In this document: positions 2,235 through 20,591 of the stretch, piece by piece
How positions within the stretch are numbered: position 1 is the first letter of the stretch
Layout of the letters: each line of letters begins with the position of its first letter
The notes under the pieces: generated by a model
What the model was told of the DNA's origin: nothing
Databases searched by the model: none
The model's input: the letters and a program-made list of their open reading frames with translations, nothing else
Source: a virus
Strand: one strand, 5' to 3'
DNA length: 36,988 nucleotides
Virus record (IMG/VR): IMGVR_UViG_3300017950_000002
Location: 1-36,988 of that record
Made by a program: the position numbers and the translations under genes

Positions 2235-2647
2235 TAGCCTAATGTCACCTTCAGATTGCCAGCAGAAATACGCAATATATCGCCCGTACTGATCGTCTTC
2301 GGCAGCGCCGTCACAAAGTCAGCAGGATCAGTAAGCTCCGCCCATGCCAGCATATTCCCGGCAGAAGAGGCATCAAAAACCCCAGCATAGGTTACTGTAC
2401 CCCAAGAGCCAGTTGCCTCTGGAAACTCCACTGCGGCGCTGCTAGTGGCTGTTGTTGGGGATGTGCCAGACACCGTAAACGCCACAGACTGACGGGCATA
2501 TCCGTTCCCAGAAACCTCAGTACCCGGGCCAGTATCACTGGCTGCGCTGGTGAAAACGCCAACGTACAAGGTAGTCGGCGCAGTATATGAAGTCCCACCA
2601 AATACATGATTGAGAACCTTGTCCTCAAGGTAGTCTGAAAAGCTCAT
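2234..2647 (-). CDS. Small tail-fibre-family structural protein, 137 aa
   Basis: This 137-residue protein begins MSFSDYLEDKVLNHVFGG and continues with a TLYVGVFTSA segment, a YARQSVAF strand, a SWGTVTYAGVFD strand and a GDILRISAGNLKVTLG end. I recognise this as a widespread phage family usually annotated as tail fibre or tail-associated protein. It is Ser/Thr/Ala rich and beta-rich with no signal peptide. It lies between the adaptor array and the long fibre, overlapping both (ATGA upstream, TAATG downstream), so it is probably co-translated with them. A structural role at the tail tip is inferred; no enzymatic motif is visible. Confidence 0.75.
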   Translation of the reverse strand: MSFSDYLEDKVLNHVFGGTSYTAPTTLYVGVFTSAASDTGPGTEVSGNGYARQSVAFTVSGTSPTTATSSAAVEFPEATGSWGTVTYAGVFDASSAGNMLAWAELTDPADFVTALPKTISTGDILRISAGNLKVTLG

Positions 2648-4797
2648 CCTAATCCCCTAACTTTTAGCTGTAAGCCTGTGCCAGACTGCGAGGCGCTGGC
2701 TCCACTTTCATTTACGCGAGCCAACGCTGCGCTGTACAACTGCGCCCATGTTGCCGCTCTCTGGTCATCTTTAATGTACGGCGCTGCATGAAGAAGCGCA
2801 CCATACAAATAAACATCTGGGTGGCTTAGTAGCAACCAGTTGTCTGCATTGCTTCCGCTCAATGCAGGTATCTTCTGGTAATACAAAAGCTCTACCTCGT
2901 ATGTGCCGTCAGCGGTCGGAAAGACCTCAAATCCGCGCTCCGCATGACGGTAATATCTTGGCTCGCCGGTAGCGTTCTCAACACCCTGACGCTTATCTGC
3001 CATTGCCGCAGCAGATAACAGTTGTAAATTTCTGGTTCCGCCAGAAGTAATGTGCAGGCGTATCGTCTCTACCCAATCACTAGGGCGCTGCAGGTACTGC
3101 CCATCAACTTCAGCAGTAGCCCGATTTTCCATTTCAAAATGGCGGATATCACGACTCATTTGAGCCTCAGCCATCTCAATAAACTGAGGTATTATATCAT
3201 CCAAGTCGGGTCTATCTAACCAATCAGAAATTGCAAACTTCAGCCCGGTATAGGTATTAAGAGACGTATCCGTATCTGGTCGCCTAACTTCAAGCAGCGC
3301 AGATTCATATTTGCCCTGCCACACCAGCACCCTTTGGTCATCACCAAGGTATGGCGCGGCCTCAGACAAAGCGCCATGCAAATAAACATCAGGATGGTTA
3401 GTTAGCATCCAGTTCGTTGTGTTGCCAGTGGACAGCGTAGTGACATCTCTAAATCGCCGCTGCAGCCGAGCCTCAGCGAGCCGTATGAACTCTGGCACCG
3501 TCTCATCAAGATCCGGGCGATTTAACCAATCTGACACGGCGAACTTTAAGCCATCATAATTAGATAGATTAGAATCCGCGTCCGGCCTTCGCACCTCAGC
3601 AAATGCGGCCTCATACTTTGTCTGCCACAGTACGCTGCGCTCATCATTCCCAAGATACGGGGATGCTTCTGCGAGCGCCCCGAACAGATACACGTCAGGG
3701 TGATTGGTAAGAACCCAGTTAGTGGTGTTGCTGTCTGATAGTGCGTCAATATCCCGCACACGGCGCTTAATCCTAGCTTCTGCAAGCTGGATAAACTCAG
3801 GGATTATTTCGTCAATATCAGGGCGATTTAGCCAATCTGCAATAGCAGCCTTTAGACCCGCGTAATTATCTAAGCTGGTATCCGCGTCAGGGCGTCTAAC
3901 CTCCAACAAGGCAGCGTCATACTTCGCCTGCCATAACGGAATACGCTCATCATTGCCGATGTACGGAATAGCCTCTACCAATGACCCAAATAGGTATACA
4001 TCCGGGTGGTTGGTAAGCATCCAGTTGGTGGTTTCTACTGCCGTCAGCGGTGTAATGTCGCGTACCCGCCGCTTAATTCTAGCCTCAGCTAACTGAATAA
4101 AGTCAGGAATAGCATCGTCTAGGTCATACCGCTCTAACCAATCCGCTATCGCCGCCTTGAGTCCGTCATAGTCATCCAGATTAACACCAGACTTAGGCTT
4201 GCGAATCTTGCCGATCTCAGCCTCGTATAGCGTCCTCCAGACCTGTAACCGATCATCTTGCCCAAGATACGGCGAAGCCTCAGAGAGAGATGCGTATAGA
4301 TACAGATCAGGGTGATTCGTCAGAATCCAGTTCGTGGTGTTGCTTGCCGAGAGCGCCGTCATGCCATCAAACTTGCGGAATAGCTTGGCCTCACCCAGCT
4401 TAATCAACTGCGGCACAACGCCATCAAGGTCTGCCCGAGCAAGCCAATCTCCGACAGCCAGCTTCAAGCCGTCATAATCATCAAAATCCGCGTTCCCTAC
4501 CGTACCCCGCAACGTACCTACAGCGGCTGCATATAGCTGCGCCCATACGTTTACACGCTCGTCTTCTACAAGGTACGGAGACGCCTCCAATAGCGCGCCA
4601 TAGAGATAAACGTCAGGATAGCTGGTAAGTATCCAGTTGTTGGCATTTGACGCTGAGAGTGGGCTGAAGTCCTTGTAGCGCCGCTTTAGCTTCGCCTCAG
4701 TCAGAGAGATGAAGTCTGGTATGGCAGCGGTTAGGTCGCTACGGTTTAGATAGTCAGCGACCGACGCCTTTAACTCAGTATAGTTGGACAGTGCCAT
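2644..4797 (-). CDS. Head-tail adaptor homologue made of six tandem units, 717 aa
   Basis: The protein is almost entirely repeat. Units start near residues 5, 107, 209, 311, 413 and 515, with a period of exactly 102 residues (306 bp) for the first five. Each short unit has an N-terminal helical half (YxGLKxAIADWLxRxDLD, then IPxFIxLAEAxxxRRxRD) and a C-terminal half (NTTNWxLTNHPDVYLxGAL, EASPYLxxDxR, VWQxKYxAAL). The sixth unit, about 200 residues, carries an extra central beta-rich stretch (about 555-645) between the same halves. That layout matches single-copy adaptor/connector proteins of podoviruses (about 200 aa), which dock under the portal. The five upstream units look like copies lacking the core domain. 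They have diverged from one another, so they are not an assembly error. The ATG directly abuts the stop of the preceding gene. Confidence 0.75.
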   Translation of the reverse strand: MALSNYTELKASVADYLNRSDLTAAIPDFISLTEAKLKRRYKDFSPLSASNANNWILTSYPDVYLYGALLEASPYLVEDERVNVWAQLYAAAVGTLRGTVGNADFDDYDGLKLAVGDWLARADLDGVVPQLIKLGEAKLFRKFDGMTALSASNTTNWILTNHPDLYLYASLSEASPYLGQDDRLQVWRTLYEAEIGKIRKPKSGVNLDDYDGLKAAIADWLERYDLDDAIPDFIQLAEARIKRRVRDITPLTAVETTNWMLTNHPDVYLFGSLVEAIPYIGNDERIPLWQAKYDAALLEVRRPDADTSLDNYAGLKAAIADWLNRPDIDEIIPEFIQLAEARIKRRVRDIDALSDSNTTNWVLTNHPDVYLFGALAEASPYLGNDERSVLWQTKYEAAFAEVRRPDADSNLSNYDGLKFAVSDWLNRPDLDETVPEFIRLAEARLQRRFRDVTTLSTGNTTNWMLTNHPDVYLHGALSEAAPYLGDDQRVLVWQGKYESALLEVRRPDTDTSLNTYTGLKFAISDWLDRPDLDDIIPQFIEMAEAQMSRDIRHFEMENRATAEVDGQYLQRPSDWVETIRLHITSGGTRNLQLLSAAAMADKRQGVENATGEPRYYRHAERGFEVFPTADGTYEVELLYYQKIPALSGSNADNWLLLSHPDVYLYGALLHAAPYIKDDQRAATWAQLYSAALARVNESGASASQSGTGLQLKVRGLG
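3256..4785 (-). repeat. Five tandem 306-bp in-frame repeats in the adaptor gene
   Basis: Five consecutive 102-codon repeats encode residues 5-514 of the adaptor-like protein. The most conserved nucleotide stretch is the one coding for the NHPDVYL region, visible on the plus strand as variants of tanacatcngggtggttngt near 2810, 3390, 3695, 4000, 4310 and 4610. Units 2-5 are closer to one another than to unit 1 or to the final full-length unit, consistent with serial duplication of an already core-deleted unit. Confidence 0.9.
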
Positions 4798-7365: not shown

Positions 7366-8646
7366 TCAAGCAATGCCGCGTAGGTTACGGCGGATAGGAT
7401 CACCCCAGTTGGATGTTTTCTTGTATCCCACCGCGAGATATCTAAATGCGTCTGCTGAGTGACTAGACCAATCGTGCGATGGCCTGCCCTTCCACACCCT
7501 GTTGTTATCATCATACTCTCGGTGATATGCCCGCAACGCATCAACACCGTGGGCGCACTTCTCAGCATCAAACCAGCACGTTGCCAACAGCGACCGTGAC
7601 GCTTGTATCCCATCATCTACGTTCAACTGCGGCGCTATCTGAATGTTGTTCAGCCCGAGAGACTGCAGCGTCTCTAGCCGGGACTTGCCCGACCCTAGCT
7701 CCCTCACCCTAACGTCATGCGGCAGGATATGCTGGTCGTATATGTAGCCCTTTTGCTGCAACACCCTAACGTAATGATCTAGGCCGACCCCGGACGCCTC
7801 ATAGTGGTCGATCAGGCGTGTCTCAGGGCCAATCATCTGGGCAAACCAGATTGCCGTCGTATCGCCTATCCCCAAGTCCCATGCGGTGATAACCGGCGAG
7901 ATAGTCTCATACGGTACGGCTGTGATCCTTCCCTGAGCGTTAGCGTCACGCATCTCCAGCGAGTAATACGCACCCTCATGGTGGGTCAGGAACGCTCCCT
8001 CCCAGATATGATCGTAGTTGTCTGGGCGCTTTTCAAAGTCATTGCGCCGGACTAGATCCAGCACCTTGGGGAAGTACGGATTGTCACGCCAGTTGATTTC
8101 CACAATCTTGCTGCTCTCTGGCGGGTCTTGCCGGAACCGCTTATGCGTAGCGGATAGGTTACTCTCCGGGTTCCACGATACCCATAGCTCAGAGCCTTCC
8201 TCGCGTATTGTGGGGTCTAGTTTGTCCCACGCTACAGAAGATACTGTTTCTGCCTCATCGACCCAGCAAAGAAGAATGCGAGCCTTAGACTTGATGCTGT
8301 CTAGGTTCCTACGCAATCCCGCAAAGGTGAACTCAATGTTGCCGTCCCGGGAGCGGATGTATCGCTCGCCAACCTCATAATACTCTGCCAGCCAATCGTA
8401 GGTCTTAATGGCCCCGGCAATCTCCTCAAACGAGCTATCAGAGAGGCTGTTCATGAACTCCCGGGCGCATAGTATCTGCCCAGAACGCCCCTCTTGGCCC
8501 CACATATAGCCCCTGACACAAGCCATGATTGCAAACGATCGGCTTTTGCCTGAGCCACGGCCTCCGTAAGCGCAGCGATAGCGCGCTTCACCACTGAATA
8601 ATTCTATCAGCTTCGGGGGTAGCTCAATCGTCGCTATATTGGTCAT
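7366..8646 (-). CDS. terL: Terminase large subunit, 426 aa
   Basis: This is the DNA-packaging motor ATPase/nuclease, acting at the portal of the procapsid. The Walker A motif GGRGSGKS lies at 28-35 and the Walker B motif WVDEAE at 128-133. The C-terminal RNase H-like nuclease carries acidic motifs AWDLGIGD (255-262), HDV (310-312) and HSADAFR (396-402). The length is usual for the Terminase_3/PBSX-like group. It overlaps the small-subunit candidate upstream by 23 bp, the normal TerS-TerL order. I did not attempt to assign the headful versus cohesive-end mechanism from the sequence. Confidence 0.95.
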   Translation of the reverse strand: MTNIATIELPPKLIELFSGEARYRCAYGGRGSGKSRSFAIMACVRGYMWGQEGRSGQILCAREFMNSLSDSSFEEIAGAIKTYDWLAEYYEVGERYIRSRDGNIEFTFAGLRRNLDSIKSKARILLCWVDEAETVSSVAWDKLDPTIREEGSELWVSWNPESNLSATHKRFRQDPPESSKIVEINWRDNPYFPKVLDLVRRNDFEKRPDNYDHIWEGAFLTHHEGAYYSLEMRDANAQGRITAVPYETISPVITAWDLGIGDTTAIWFAQMIGPETRLIDHYEASGVGLDHYVRVLQQKGYIYDQHILPHDVRVRELGSGKSRLETLQSLGLNNIQIAPQLNVDDGIQASRSLLATCWFDAEKCAHGVDALRAYHREYDDNNRVWKGRPSHDWSSHSADAFRYLAVGYKKTSNWGDPIRRNLRGIA

Positions 8647-9338: not shown

Positions 9339-9536
9339 TTATCGCCTATTGGCGACCTTCTTTAAAGCGGCAGGGCAACGCACAATCTCCAGCGGAGGCT
9401 CATCCGTTCCCCTCAACGGTATAACAGACAAATCCCACATGATTGCCATATCCTCACCCCAACGCTCCGCCATCTGAGTTGCAGCCTGCAGCGCGATACG
9501 GGTATCTTCGTCATCCCACGGTGAAACATAGCTCAT
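9339..9536 (-). CDS. Hypothetical small protein, 65 aa
   Basis: It begins MSYVSPWDDEDTRIALQAA and continues with a helical segment and a basic end (AALKKVANRR). It has no membrane segment and no family I recognise. Its ATG overlaps the stop of the upstream gene as ATGA, which supports translation. The last codons form a short hairpin (TCGCC/GGCGA) without a U tract. It is the last gene of the early block before the 152-bp gap. Confidence 0.6.
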   Translation of the reverse strand: MSYVSPWDDEDTRIALQAATQMAERWGEDMAIMWDLSVIPLRGTDEPPLEIVRCPAALKKVANRR

Positions 9537-9727
9537 TGGCAGTCAGCCTCCTTGTAGTCAGGCCATGCGCCATTGGTTACGTTCTCGCAGTAAACCTCTT
9601 GCGCTTTTACAGCCTCCTCATAGTCGCCATTACCTGCATAGCCAAAGCCAACAACGAAGACTATTGAAGCCAATAGCCAGACTATATGCTCAGGCATATC
9701 CCTCATTAGATCCATTATCGCTTTCAT
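9533..9727 (-). CDS. Small single-span membrane protein, 64 aa
   Basis: One hydrophobic helix runs over about residues 14-31 (HIVWLLASIVFVVGFGYAG), preceded by MKAIMDLMRDMPE and followed by an acidic tail with two cysteines (VYCENV and ADCQ). This suggests insertion in the inner membrane, with the two Cys possibly forming a disulphide if the tail is periplasmic. It overlaps the upstream gene by 38 bp and the downstream gene by ATGA. Function is unknown; early-block membrane micro-proteins often alter host physiology or exclude other phages, but nothing here shows that. Confidence 0.6.
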   Translation of the reverse strand: MKAIMDLMRDMPEHIVWLLASIVFVVGFGYAGNGDYEEAVKAQEVYCENVTNGAWPDYKEADCQ

Positions 9728-18424: not shown

Positions 18425-18787
18425 TTAGTATGACCAGATGGTGGGGTTGGGTTTTGTGTAGTCCCAATCAAGGTGGATGAACCTGCCGCTGCCCTTTTGA
18501 TTAATACCAATCCTTGGGCAGTCGTGCATCATAGCGAGGGCAATAAGCCTGTGGGCGTCTTTGCCCTGCACCCCAATATCAACAGCAAGCCCGGTAGAGT
18601 GCGCCCCCGGGCCAGACTCTTTGCGAGCCTCAATAGGATGGTCAGGGCATCTATATCCAGATGTCACCGGCAGAGGAATACCCATCAGTTCGCGCAACAC
18701 ATCCAGCTTGTCGCGCACATCATCGGAAAACTTCAACTGACCGCAGCCACACTGGCAGCGCAATTCATCGTCAGAAAAGTAGGTCAT
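18425..18787 (-). CDS. Endolysin, peptidase M15-type, 120 aa
   Basis: This is a zinc D-Ala-D-Ala-type peptidase that cuts cell-wall peptides. The motif SGYRCPDHP (43-51) is followed by HSTGLAVDIG (H63, D70) and RFIHLDW (H105), the three zinc ligands of the Peptidase_M15_3/VanY group. The N-terminus carries LRCQCGCGQLKF, a Cys-rich segment common in these small endolysins. There is no signal peptide, so release depends on the adjacent holin. Its ATG overlaps the holin stop. Confidence 0.9.
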   Translation of the reverse strand: MTYFSDDELRCQCGCGQLKFSDDVRDKLDVLRELMGIPLPVTSGYRCPDHPIEARKESGPGAHSTGLAVDIGVQGKDAHRLIALAMMHDCPRIGINQKGSGRFIHLDWDYTKPNPTIWSY

Positions 18788-19182
18788 TTTTCTCTCTGCA
18801 CCCCTTTGGACTTTTCGTATGTACGCATTGCGCCAAGCCCGAGCATTCCCATGAGGACAGGCATCATGGTTTGAAGATCAACTAGCGGCACTTCAATATC
18901 AGATCCATTAAGGCGAAGAATAAGATTACCGATAGGAGCAACGAGAAAGTTGCAAGCCATCCCCATAACGCAAACCCAGCCAACAGCCGGTCGCCAGCCT
19001 GCGACAAATAAACTCTTATGCGCGGCTTCTGTTTGGTTAACCGCCAATTGCGCTTTTGAGATTTCATGCGCGTGTCGCTCAGACATTGTGGCGATTTCAT
19101 GGGCAAGCCTATTACGCTCATCAGCGTCAGGTATGAATTTATCCAGCAGGGCTGATACGGGGCCAATTAGAAGGTCAATCAT
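18784..19182 (-). CDS. Three-TM-type holin, 132 aa
   Basis: It begins MIDLLIGPVSALLDKFIPDA, then a charged helix rich in His/Glu/Lys, then AAHKSLFVAGWRPAVGWVCV, the hallmark of the GTA/3TM holin family. Hydrophobic helices cover about 1-15 (weak), 63-85 and 103-120. It would open the inner membrane at the time of lysis. It is located directly between the spanin-like pair and the endolysin, with overlaps at both ends. Confidence 0.9.
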   Translation of the reverse strand: MIDLLIGPVSALLDKFIPDADERNRLAHEIATMSERHAHEISKAQLAVNQTEAAHKSLFVAGWRPAVGWVCVMGMACNFLVAPIGNLILRLNGSDIEVPLVDLQTMMPVLMGMLGLGAMRTYEKSKGVQREK

Positions 19183-19264
19183 GGGGCCACTGCCATTCTG
19201 GATCGTTGCTTGTTACTACTGTGCAGGAAGTCAGCAACAGTAAGCTAAAAAATATCGCCTTCAC
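19175..19264 (-). CDS. Tiny lipoprotein, o-spanin candidate, 29 aa
   Basis: From GTG 19264 (GTGA overlap with the upstream stop) it encodes MKAIFFSLLLLTSC and a 15-residue tail ending WQWPHD. This is a textbook lipoprotein signal: Lys2, a hydrophobic core and lipobox LTSC with C14. The mature part would be only 16 residues, much shorter than the o-spanins I know (about 40 in lambda Rz1). It follows a TM/coiled-coil protein of i-spanin design and precedes the holin with an eight-base overlap, exactly where an o-spanin belongs. Confidence 0.65.
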   Translation of the reverse strand: MKAIFFSLLLLTSCTVVTSNDPEWQWPHD

Positions 19265-19491
19265 TTATCTGCCTTGCGGTCTAGCTTTTCCTCAATCGCA
19301 TCCAGCTTGTCGAAAAGCCTCTGCATATCAGATTTCCATTCTTCCCGCTTGAGATATTCACCAGCCACAGAGACTTCCAGTTTTCCAACTTGCTCATCTA
19401 AATGCTTCACGGCGTCCCACATCCCTTTCAACAATAGCGCATACGCCCCTGCGGCGATGGAAATAATCGTATTAATTAACGCCTGATCCAT
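19261..19491 (-). CDS. TM/coiled-coil protein, i-spanin candidate, 76 aa
   Basis: The start is ATG 19491 in a TAATG overlap. An N-terminal hydrophobic helix (about 5-22, INTIISIAAGAYALLLKG) is followed by a charged coiled coil to the end (LDEQVGKLEV, then RLFDKLDAIEEKLDRKADK). One N-terminal anchor with a long helical periplasmic part is the design of an i-spanin. Its 3' end overlaps the lipoprotein gene. An alternative is a holin-accessory protein. It is shorter than lambda Rz (153 aa). Confidence 0.6.
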   Translation of the reverse strand: MDQALINTIISIAAGAYALLLKGMWDAVKHLDEQVGKLEVSVAGEYLKREEWKSDMQRLFDKLDAIEEKLDRKADK

Positions 19492-19670
19492 TATCTCCAT
19501 ACCTCATACCACATCTCTTTGACGGCTTTCTTTGCCTTCTTGTAACGTATTCTAACATCTACTCGAACGGTATAGAGAAAACCATCAACACGGGTAACAG
19601 CAGTGCGGATATCACTCCTAACACCAGCAATGACTCGATTAACTTCGTCTTTGAGTGATTCACGGTTCAT
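19491..19670 (-). CDS. Small basic hypothetical protein, 59 aa
   Basis: The ATG at 19670 reads MNRESLKDEVNRVIAGVRSD and ends in a very basic region (IRYKKAKKAVKEMWYEVWR). The TAA overlaps the next ATG as TAATG, which supports translation. There is no membrane segment. It lies at the head of the lysis cassette, just after the repeat lipoprotein. I do not recognise a family. Confidence 0.55.
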   Translation of the reverse strand: MNRESLKDEVNRVIAGVRSDIRTAVTRVDGFLYTVRVDVRIRYKKAKKAVKEMWYEVWR

Positions 19671-19682
19671 TACGCTCTTCCG

Positions 19683-20591
19683 TTATGGAGTGCAGTTTAC
19701 TGATGAAGTGCCGTCAGCATTATTGACAACCGTACACTTCAACTGTGGGACATTTTTCATGATCTCAGCGATCGCCGTGGTGTAGTCTGACCAAACGCCA
19801 TCCATCAGCGCGTTATTGCCAGCATCAAGCGAAAGCAAAGTGCCGAATGCCGTTGTGCTTACATTGGTTATCCCAGTAATACCCGCGTTGCCCAGATTTA
19901 CAGCGCCATCAATTCCGGCATTTCCTAGATTTACAGCGCCATCAATTCCGGCATTTCCTAGATTTACAGCGCCATCAATTCCAGCCGTGCCGAGGGCTAC
20001 ATTAGAGTCAAACCCAGCAGTACCCAAGGTGACAGCCCCGTTAATCCCAGCCGTGCCGAGGGCCACGTTGGAATCAAAACCAGCAGTGCCTAGATTTACC
20101 GCGCCATTAATGCCAGCAGTTCCAAGATCAACCATGCCATTAACGAATGGCGTATAGTCAATGTTGCCTGCGACCTCACCCATGCTAACGAACGACCCAT
20201 ATAGCGACTGCTGGGTGGTGGCATCCGCAGAAATGCGGGCCAGATCAACGTCTGCGCTGTACTTAGCCATCGTCTTTGCTGAGTCTGCCTGCATCCACAT
20301 CATTCCCAAGCTAGTAACCGGGGTCGCCAAAATAGATGCCCACTGTAACGCCTGAGACTGTTGTGGAACCGGAGTGATAGTTGGCGTCTGAGTTAGCGCA
20401 AGAGCCATCACAGCGGCGCTGGCAGCTTGTCCGTCACCAGAGGATGCAATGGCAGCAAGTGCGTCATATTTTGCCTGAGATGCGGCTGCATTAGCCTGCG
20501 CTGCGGCCTGTACCGCTTCGTAATATTGGCTGGTGCTTGAGGCGCAACCGCTTAGAACCGCAACCAACGCCAAAGAAAATCCCACTTTCAT
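19683..20591 (-). CDS. Repeat-bearing lipoprotein, 302 aa
   Basis: A lipoprotein signal (MKVGFSLALVAVLSGC, Cys16) predicts acylation and probable outer-membrane placement. Residues 17-70 are Ala/Gln-rich and helical. Residues 83-100 are hydrophobic (WASILATPVTSLGMMWM). Residues 157-244 hold eight tandem 11-residue repeats of the type GTAGINGAVNL. The first four alternate two versions (INGAV and FDSNVA), while later copies are GNAGIDGAVNL. The C-terminus has two Cys (LKCTVV and VNCTP). It lies between capsid and lysis genes. Surface or periplasmic action such as superinfection exclusion, or a lysis role, is inference; I know no characterised homologue. Confidence 0.7.
   Translation of the reverse strand: MKVGFSLALVAVLSGCASSTSQYYEAVQAAAQANAAASQAKYDALAAIASSGDGQAASAAVMALALTQTPTITPVPQQSQALQWASILATPVTSLGMMWMQADSAKTMAKYSADVDLARISADATTQQSLYGSFVSMGEVAGNIDYTPFVNGMVDLGTAGINGAVNLGTAGFDSNVALGTAGINGAVTLGTAGFDSNVALGTAGIDGAVNLGNAGIDGAVNLGNAGIDGAVNLGNAGITGITNVSTTAFGTLLSLDAGNNALMDGVWSDYTTAIAEIMKNVPQLKCTVVNNADGTSSVNCTP
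19860..20123 (-). repeat. Eight tandem 33-bp in-frame repeats in the lipoprotein gene
   Basis: The 33-bp unit encodes an 11-residue repeat. On the plus strand about 19897-19980 repeats the phrase tagatttacagcgccatcaa nearly without change, indicating recent expansion. The copies to its right (about 19990-20123) alternate two diverged versions, indicating an older 66-bp unit. Copy number is likely to vary between relatives. Confidence 0.9.

Follow-up and report, generated by a model that had tools for sequence, protein, structure and literature searches.

A conserved 29-residue lipoprotein gene overlapping the holin gene of an IMG/VR virus: a candidate for a very short, o-spanin-like lysis protein

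Introduction

In the o-spanin Rz1 of phage lambda the lipidated cysteine is followed by a replaceable linker and then by an essential proline-rich part (PMC5295617). Residues 32-54, i.e. 23 residues, are required, and the substitutions P44S, W46R and W46C block lysis whereas D45K does not, according to the portion of that work drawn on here (PMC5295617). In the parts of a spanin survey used here, overlapped gene order is given for 228 of 528 two-component pairs, and combined periplasmic lengths range from 62 to 300 residues, the minimum of 62 belonging to phiP27 (PMC6139136). A periplasmic cysteine occurs in at least one subunit in 505 of 526 pairs by the survey's Table 7 (507 of 528 by its text), with 21 pairs lacking it, and no spanin was found in 91 of 677 phages (PMC6139136). 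Given this minimum combined length, small o-spanins may already be known, as far as these parts of the survey go. The published o-spanins have been divided into 125 families, so that a missing family match is a weak feature. Colicin lysis and bacteriocin release lipoproteins are tiny and weaken the outer membrane during release.

Here we describe a lipoprotein gene that resembles the two-component o-spanins in its outer-membrane lipoprotein signal, its cassette position, its overlapping gene and its arrangement of a linker followed by a Pro/Trp segment. It differs from them in the absence of a penta-proline stretch, of an extra cysteine and of an accepted i-spanin partner, and in being absent from close relatives. 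With 16 mature residues against 40 in lambda Rz1, the whole peptide is shorter than the 23-residue key domain of the latter.

Results and discussion

The window, i.e. the whole stretch of DNA that was analysed, is an IMG/VR record of 36,988 bases (IMGVR_UViG_3300017950_000002) whose recognised genes all lie on the minus strand. A sequence-only reading had proposed an o-spanin gene of 29 codons, embedded by overlaps between an i-spanin-like gene and the holin gene. Re-reading of the sequence returned the same coordinates, start codon, lipobox and mature length, and the embedding was borne out, with an overlap of 4 nt with the upstream 79-aa gene (19261-19264) and of 8 nt with the holin. The features of the region are:

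18425..18787, minus strand: M15 peptidase endolysin (Peptidase_M15_3, PF08291; phrog_894), by profile match
18784..19182, minus strand: holin (GTA_holin_3TM, PF11351; phrog_3427), by profile match
19175..19182, minus strand: 8-nt overlap ATGATTGA between the end of the lipoprotein gene and the start of the holin gene, from the sequence
19175..19264, minus strand: 29-aa prolipoprotein MKAIFFSLLLLTS/CTVVTSNDPEWQWPHD, GTG start, 29 residues plus stop
19178..19225, minus strand: mature lipopeptide, Cys1 to Asp16, core D-P-E-W-x-W/Y-P, from sequence and codon comparison
19226..19264, minus strand: signal peptide of 13 residues, lipobox L-T-S then Cys, from the sequence
19261..19500, minus strand: 79-aa gene with TM and coiled coil (the i-spanin of the sequence-only reading), phrog_12220/phrog_462 family, by profile match
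19683..20591, minus strand: 302-aa lipoprotein with NLGTAGI/NLGNAGI repeats, a C-terminal Cys pair and lipobox LSGC, by lipobox scan

The gene order of the lysis region is 302-aa lipoprotein, 59-aa ORF, 79-aa gene, 29-aa lipoprotein, holin and endolysin. As a separate observation, a GTG-started TM peptide of 34 aa, MNHSKTKLIESLLVLGVISALLLPVLMVFSIPFE (19559-19663, minus strand), lies in an alternate frame inside the 59-aa ORF (19491-19670, minus strand), a membrane micropeptide in the lysis region that overlaps another ORF. Both ORFs have relatives in several contigs, and a similar 45-aa peptide occurs in contig L128. Elsewhere in the window, a 717-aa protein (2644-4797, minus strand) appears to be made up of several diverged tandem modules of ~90 residues (YDGLKxAxxDWLxRxDLDxxxPxFIxLAEA...), as judged by eye.

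The 29-aa gene carries, at sequence level, the outer-membrane lipoprotein signal of an o-spanin: L-T-S-C fits the lipobox consensus [LVI][ASTVI][GAS]C (PMC6139136), and residue +2 is Thr, not Asp. ORFs that combine a consensus lipobox with a strongly hydrophobic signal number two in the window, where 60 order-3 Markov replicates give an expectation of 0.07 for the two strands; they are the 29-aa gene and the 302-aa lipoprotein. A looser lipobox scan finds three against 0.75 expected per window (0.43 of the expected being ORFs of at most 40 aa), so that the lipobox alone is weak evidence and it is conservation that settles the reality of the gene.

The lipoprotein was found with its mature part intact in 23 other IMG/VR contigs, and as a remnant in two more. 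Holin similarity pulled 80 loci, six of which yielded the lipoprotein in a strict lipobox scan, and similarity to the 79-aa gene pulled 19 loci. A search with the motif pattern gave 37 stretches, 13 of them unrelated and 24 belonging to the lipoprotein family, the latter comprising 22 with an intact mature part (counting the copy in L126, which is cut at the contig edge) and the two remnants in L047 and L053. One further copy, with DPQW (L084), was added through the 79-aa gene search, not through the pattern. Every complete copy has a mature part of 16 residues apart from that of L128 (21 residues), whereas the length of the signal varies between 12 and 21 residues. Start codons are GTG or ATG, the -3 residue is S or F in L104, L109, L123, L119 and L132 (a weaker lipobox), and the conserved mature core reads C-T-V-x-x-x-x-D-P-E-W-x-W/Y-P.

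The mature part is under strong purifying selection. Nine DNA versions fetched without use of the motif gave a pS of 0.67, a pN of 0.13 and a dN/dS of 0.087 over 13 single-coding codons, and a dN/dS of 0.127 over the 7 mature codons outside the search pattern. For the window against L104 the ratio over the same 7 codons is 0.75, i.e. no clear constraint, a value from few sites and of little weight. The signal is less constrained than the mature part, with a dN/dS of 0.36 over its last 9 codons. The final H/N/Y-D is largely dictated by the overlap with the holin start and is therefore not independent evidence, which comes from mature positions 1-14. The check proposed along with the sequence-only reading, conservation of the start, the lipobox and the WQWPHD tail, thus gives a positive result for start, lipobox and the WxW/Y-P part, with the HD end owed largely to the overlap. 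We conclude that 19175-19264 on the minus strand is a genuine, conserved gene. A chance ORF or a decayed gene without function, to which the two remnants and the 0.75 matches per window expected under loose scanning might point, is an explanation with next to no probability left: the low dN/dS, the fixed mature length and the core kept in L128 in a different gene context all speak against it, and selection on the mature codons rules out a chance ORF.

The 8-nt overlap with the holin is the same in all complete copies except that of L128. In this contig of 13 kb, an intact lipoprotein with a longer tail lies between a putative small terminase gene and the large-lipoprotein region, with no recognised holin beside it and no 79-aa homologue. 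This copy and the patchy presence of the gene would suit a lipoprotein that has nothing to do with lysis and stands beside the holin by chance, serving e.g. superinfection exclusion or an envelope change. Such a role, which we consider quite improbable, is hard to reconcile with the late-gene position and with the translational overlap that every other complete copy shares with the holin.

Ten contigs hold the 79-aa gene without the lipoprotein (L005, L007, L008, L012, L088, L095, L096, L098, L089 and L092). In eight of these, the same holin follows straight on from the 79-aa gene, and in L089 and L092 another gene takes the place of the holin. The nine that were searched whole (all except L098), which may be fragments, hold no lipoprotein copy elsewhere. 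The L007 contig and the window are sisters, with synteny along most of the genome, the major head protein at 90%, the 426-aa gene (7366-8646) at 92% and many genes at 70-95%; given this synteny, the difference in the lipoprotein comes down to ~80 bp gained or lost precisely. In a holin tree of 25 rows, two long ones of which (L140 and L141) are unsure, presence has to change four times, and well supported branches force at least three of these changes. In the phages of L104 type, the lipoprotein adjoins the holin and the 79-aa gene lies ~2 kb upstream, behind two structural genes of 260 aa and 323 aa; the arrangement can be seen in L109 (10374-12394), a member of this clade. In L047 and L053 one recombination took out the lipoprotein signal and the 79-aa gene together; at the junction (~2860-3010) a truncated MDPMSLLAMASTTFKG gene is fused to the 3' half of the lipoprotein gene, giving LTSCTIVTTSDPEWTWPND, without a start. 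The sequence-only reading had named loss of the lipobox frame in close relatives as evidence against itself, and such loss is in part what we see, the gene being absent in L007 and its signal lost in the two remnants. No other gene of the window tracks the presence of the lipoprotein over eight contigs compared (four with it, four without), and no co-varying partner gene emerged from them.

The same reading had also allowed for a larger lipoprotein as the true o-spanin. None is proven, though the 302-aa lipoprotein lies upstream, and its relatives occur near lysis genes in L007, L020, L065 and L128. As a substitute for the small lipoprotein it was rejected, since the two assort independently: both are present in the window, L001 and L128, the large one only in L007, and the small one only in G010, G020 and G003. 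Its AlphaFold model is poor (mean pLDDT 42.5).

The 79-aa gene had been read as the i-spanin, with the 29-aa lipoprotein as the o-spanin of a two-component spanin. Several observations agree with such a pair. The gene order is overlapped, as in 228 of 528 published pairs (PMC6139136), the 79-aa protein has a single N-terminal TM and a predicted coiled coil, and the combined periplasmic length would be ~54+16=70 residues, more than the 62 of phiP27, the shortest published (PMC6139136), if its C-terminus were outside (otherwise 16). The 79-aa gene is also present in the four larger contigs compared that carry the 29-aa lipoprotein (window, G010, G020, G003) and in the five L104-type contigs, G003 among them, and it is gone from both remnant contigs, where one recombination explains both losses.

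The predicted topology, however, points the other way. By the positive-inside rule, basic residues flank a helix on its cytoplasmic side. In the 79-aa protein the N-tail is acidic and free of K/R, and a Lys directly follows the helix, so that the protein is predicted to be C-in, opposite to an i-spanin. All full homologues likewise lack K/R before the helix and have Lys or Arg close after it (a 26-residue fragment, row L133, was excluded from this count), and the N-tail is net negative in every one of them except L005, whose row starts inside the helix. The N-tail carries a net positive charge in the i-spanins lambda Rz, KL1 gp02 and Yazdi-M gp17; that of T7 18.5 scores 0, the automatic window having placed its R-K inside the helix.

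Gene context likewise argues against the pair. Homologues of the 79-aa protein occur in Septimatrevirus (Yazdi-M gp20, NC_069742) and Kilunavirus (KL1 gp37, NC_018278), whose cassettes start with this homologue, overlapping the next gene, an annotated holin. Unlike the cassette of the window, they hold a complete Rz/Rz1 (phrog_1026/phrog_1275) after the endolysin, at their end, and no DPEW lipoprotein was seen in them. In Yazdi-M, gp17 matches phrog_1026 and an overlapping ORF matches phrog_1275, each labelled 'Rz-like spanin'; in KL1, two spanins are annotated besides the homologue. The coiled-coil gene would therefore have another role in these genera. The two phrog_462 members, NC_069742 gp20 (L138 3995-4249) and NC_018278 gp37 (L164 1-267), are annotated as 'lipoprotein' and contain no cysteine; judging from their sequences, this name looks wrong. 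XhlA-like coiled-coil proteins (PF10779; weak, sub-threshold matches) occupy in L020-type phages the same cassette slot as the 79-aa gene, which may be their analogue, although the TM is C-terminal there and N-terminal in the 79-aa protein.

Further points against the pair are the ten contigs with the 79-aa gene and no lipoprotein, the 260-aa and 323-aa genes that separate the two in the L104 clade, and the C-terminus I-x-x-K-L/I-D-x-K-x-D-K, which is unchanged with or without the lipoprotein. Neither the 79-aa protein nor the mature lipoprotein beyond Cys1 contains a cysteine, a lack shared with 21 of 526 published pairs (PMC6139136). The 79-aa gene is probably not the spanin partner of the lipoprotein, and we regard the two-component spanin made of these genes as unlikely. 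What stands of the sequence-only proposal is a real lipoprotein, which adjoins the holin in every complete copy apart from that of L128; the i-spanin partner proposed for it found no support. One other ORF was considered as an i-spanin:

9533-9727, minus strand: 64-aa ORF with an N-terminal TM, a basic N-tail residue and a Cys-bearing C-terminal tail, from the list of coding-strand TM ORFs

Its predicted topology might suit a small i-spanin; it was rejected, as its relatives occur both with and without the lipoprotein.

The lipoprotein could alternatively be a stand-alone lysis lipopeptide without a bridge to the inner membrane, comparable to the colicin lysis or bacteriocin release lipoproteins. 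It shares their small size, no partner gene co-varies with it among the eight contigs, and its pattern of presence and absence suits an add-on; moreover, 16 residues span less than ~5.5 nm when fully extended and would not reach the inner membrane alone. A sequence match is absent, however: no Pfam family, those of colicin lysis included, was hit at E up to 1, and this explanation, too, is an improbable one. Neither did the lipoprotein match any PHROG or NCBIfam family (the best PHROG, phrog_6073 'Rz-like spanin', has an E of 0.18 and is not significant). No sequence relation to a described o-spanin family appeared in profiles or phage records, a tblastn search of 50,697 phage records was negative and hence gave no annotated homologue in public phages, and a scan of GTDB genomes with the motif pattern was likewise empty.

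Within the mature peptide, P-E-W-Q-W-P is spaced as P44-D-W46-Q-T-P49 of lambda Rz1, with P-[DE]-W-x-x-P in common. The pattern [DEK]-W-x-x-P is present in three of six o-spanins examined (lambda, KL1 and Yazdi-M Rz1); it does not occur in T7 18.7 or in the printed translations of P2 LysC and HK97 Rz1. When the composition of the peptide is shuffled, P[DE]WxxP arises in 0.36% and [DEK]WxxP in 4.8% of cases. This resemblance in sequence, six residues long and noticed post hoc, is a lead.

The explanation that we favour, if tentatively and at just short of an even chance, is that the gene encodes a very short lipoprotein with an accessory part in lysis at the outer membrane, o-spanin-like and putative in its spanin activity, with a partner, if it has any, that is probably not the 79-aa protein. 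The lipoprotein would be made at lysis time via coupling with the holin, lipidated and then sorted to the outer membrane. There, a short flexible, polar/valine stretch (CTVVTSN) would carry the Pro/Trp segment DPEWQWP, which may help to destabilise the outer membrane after the action of holin and endolysin, so that the peptide would do the work of the lipid-anchored portion of an o-spanin, reduced to the least possible. Coupling to the start of the holin gene, purifying selection, fixed mature length, the Rz1 core spacing and an Rz1-like replaceable linker after the cysteine are consistent with this accessory role; the missing family match, the absence in close relatives and the L128 copy away from a recognised holin count against it. 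A full spanin role is opposed by a length of 16 residues against 23, the lack of a partner of the right topology, the lack of an extra cysteine and the absence of the gene from relatives. One step further, and with somewhat less confidence than the accessory role, the 16-residue mature lipopeptide, a unit of ~80 bp gained or lost between overlapping lysis genes, could be a disruptor of the outer membrane at minimal size: the shortest o-spanin described, or else a lytic lipopeptide that acts independently of spanins and for which the P-E-W-x-W-P core is sufficient. In the literature searched, to which the published length table (PMC6139136, supplements) did not belong, we came across no account of an o-spanin this short, and we do not claim the 29-aa lipoprotein as the shortest one.

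Conclusions

The coiled-coil gene named 'lipoprotein' in phrog_462, which heads many lysis cassettes, is no obvious i-spanin, and the sequences considered here are no lipoproteins. The 29-aa gene bears on the question of the minimum protein required for rupture of the outer membrane, following the action of holin and endolysin. The detailed o-spanin genetics drawn on here are those of lambda Rz1, in which the key domain takes up 23 of 40 residues (PMC5295617). With a 16-residue lipopeptide under selection, and with natural sister phages that have and lack its gene, this minimum would be directly testable.
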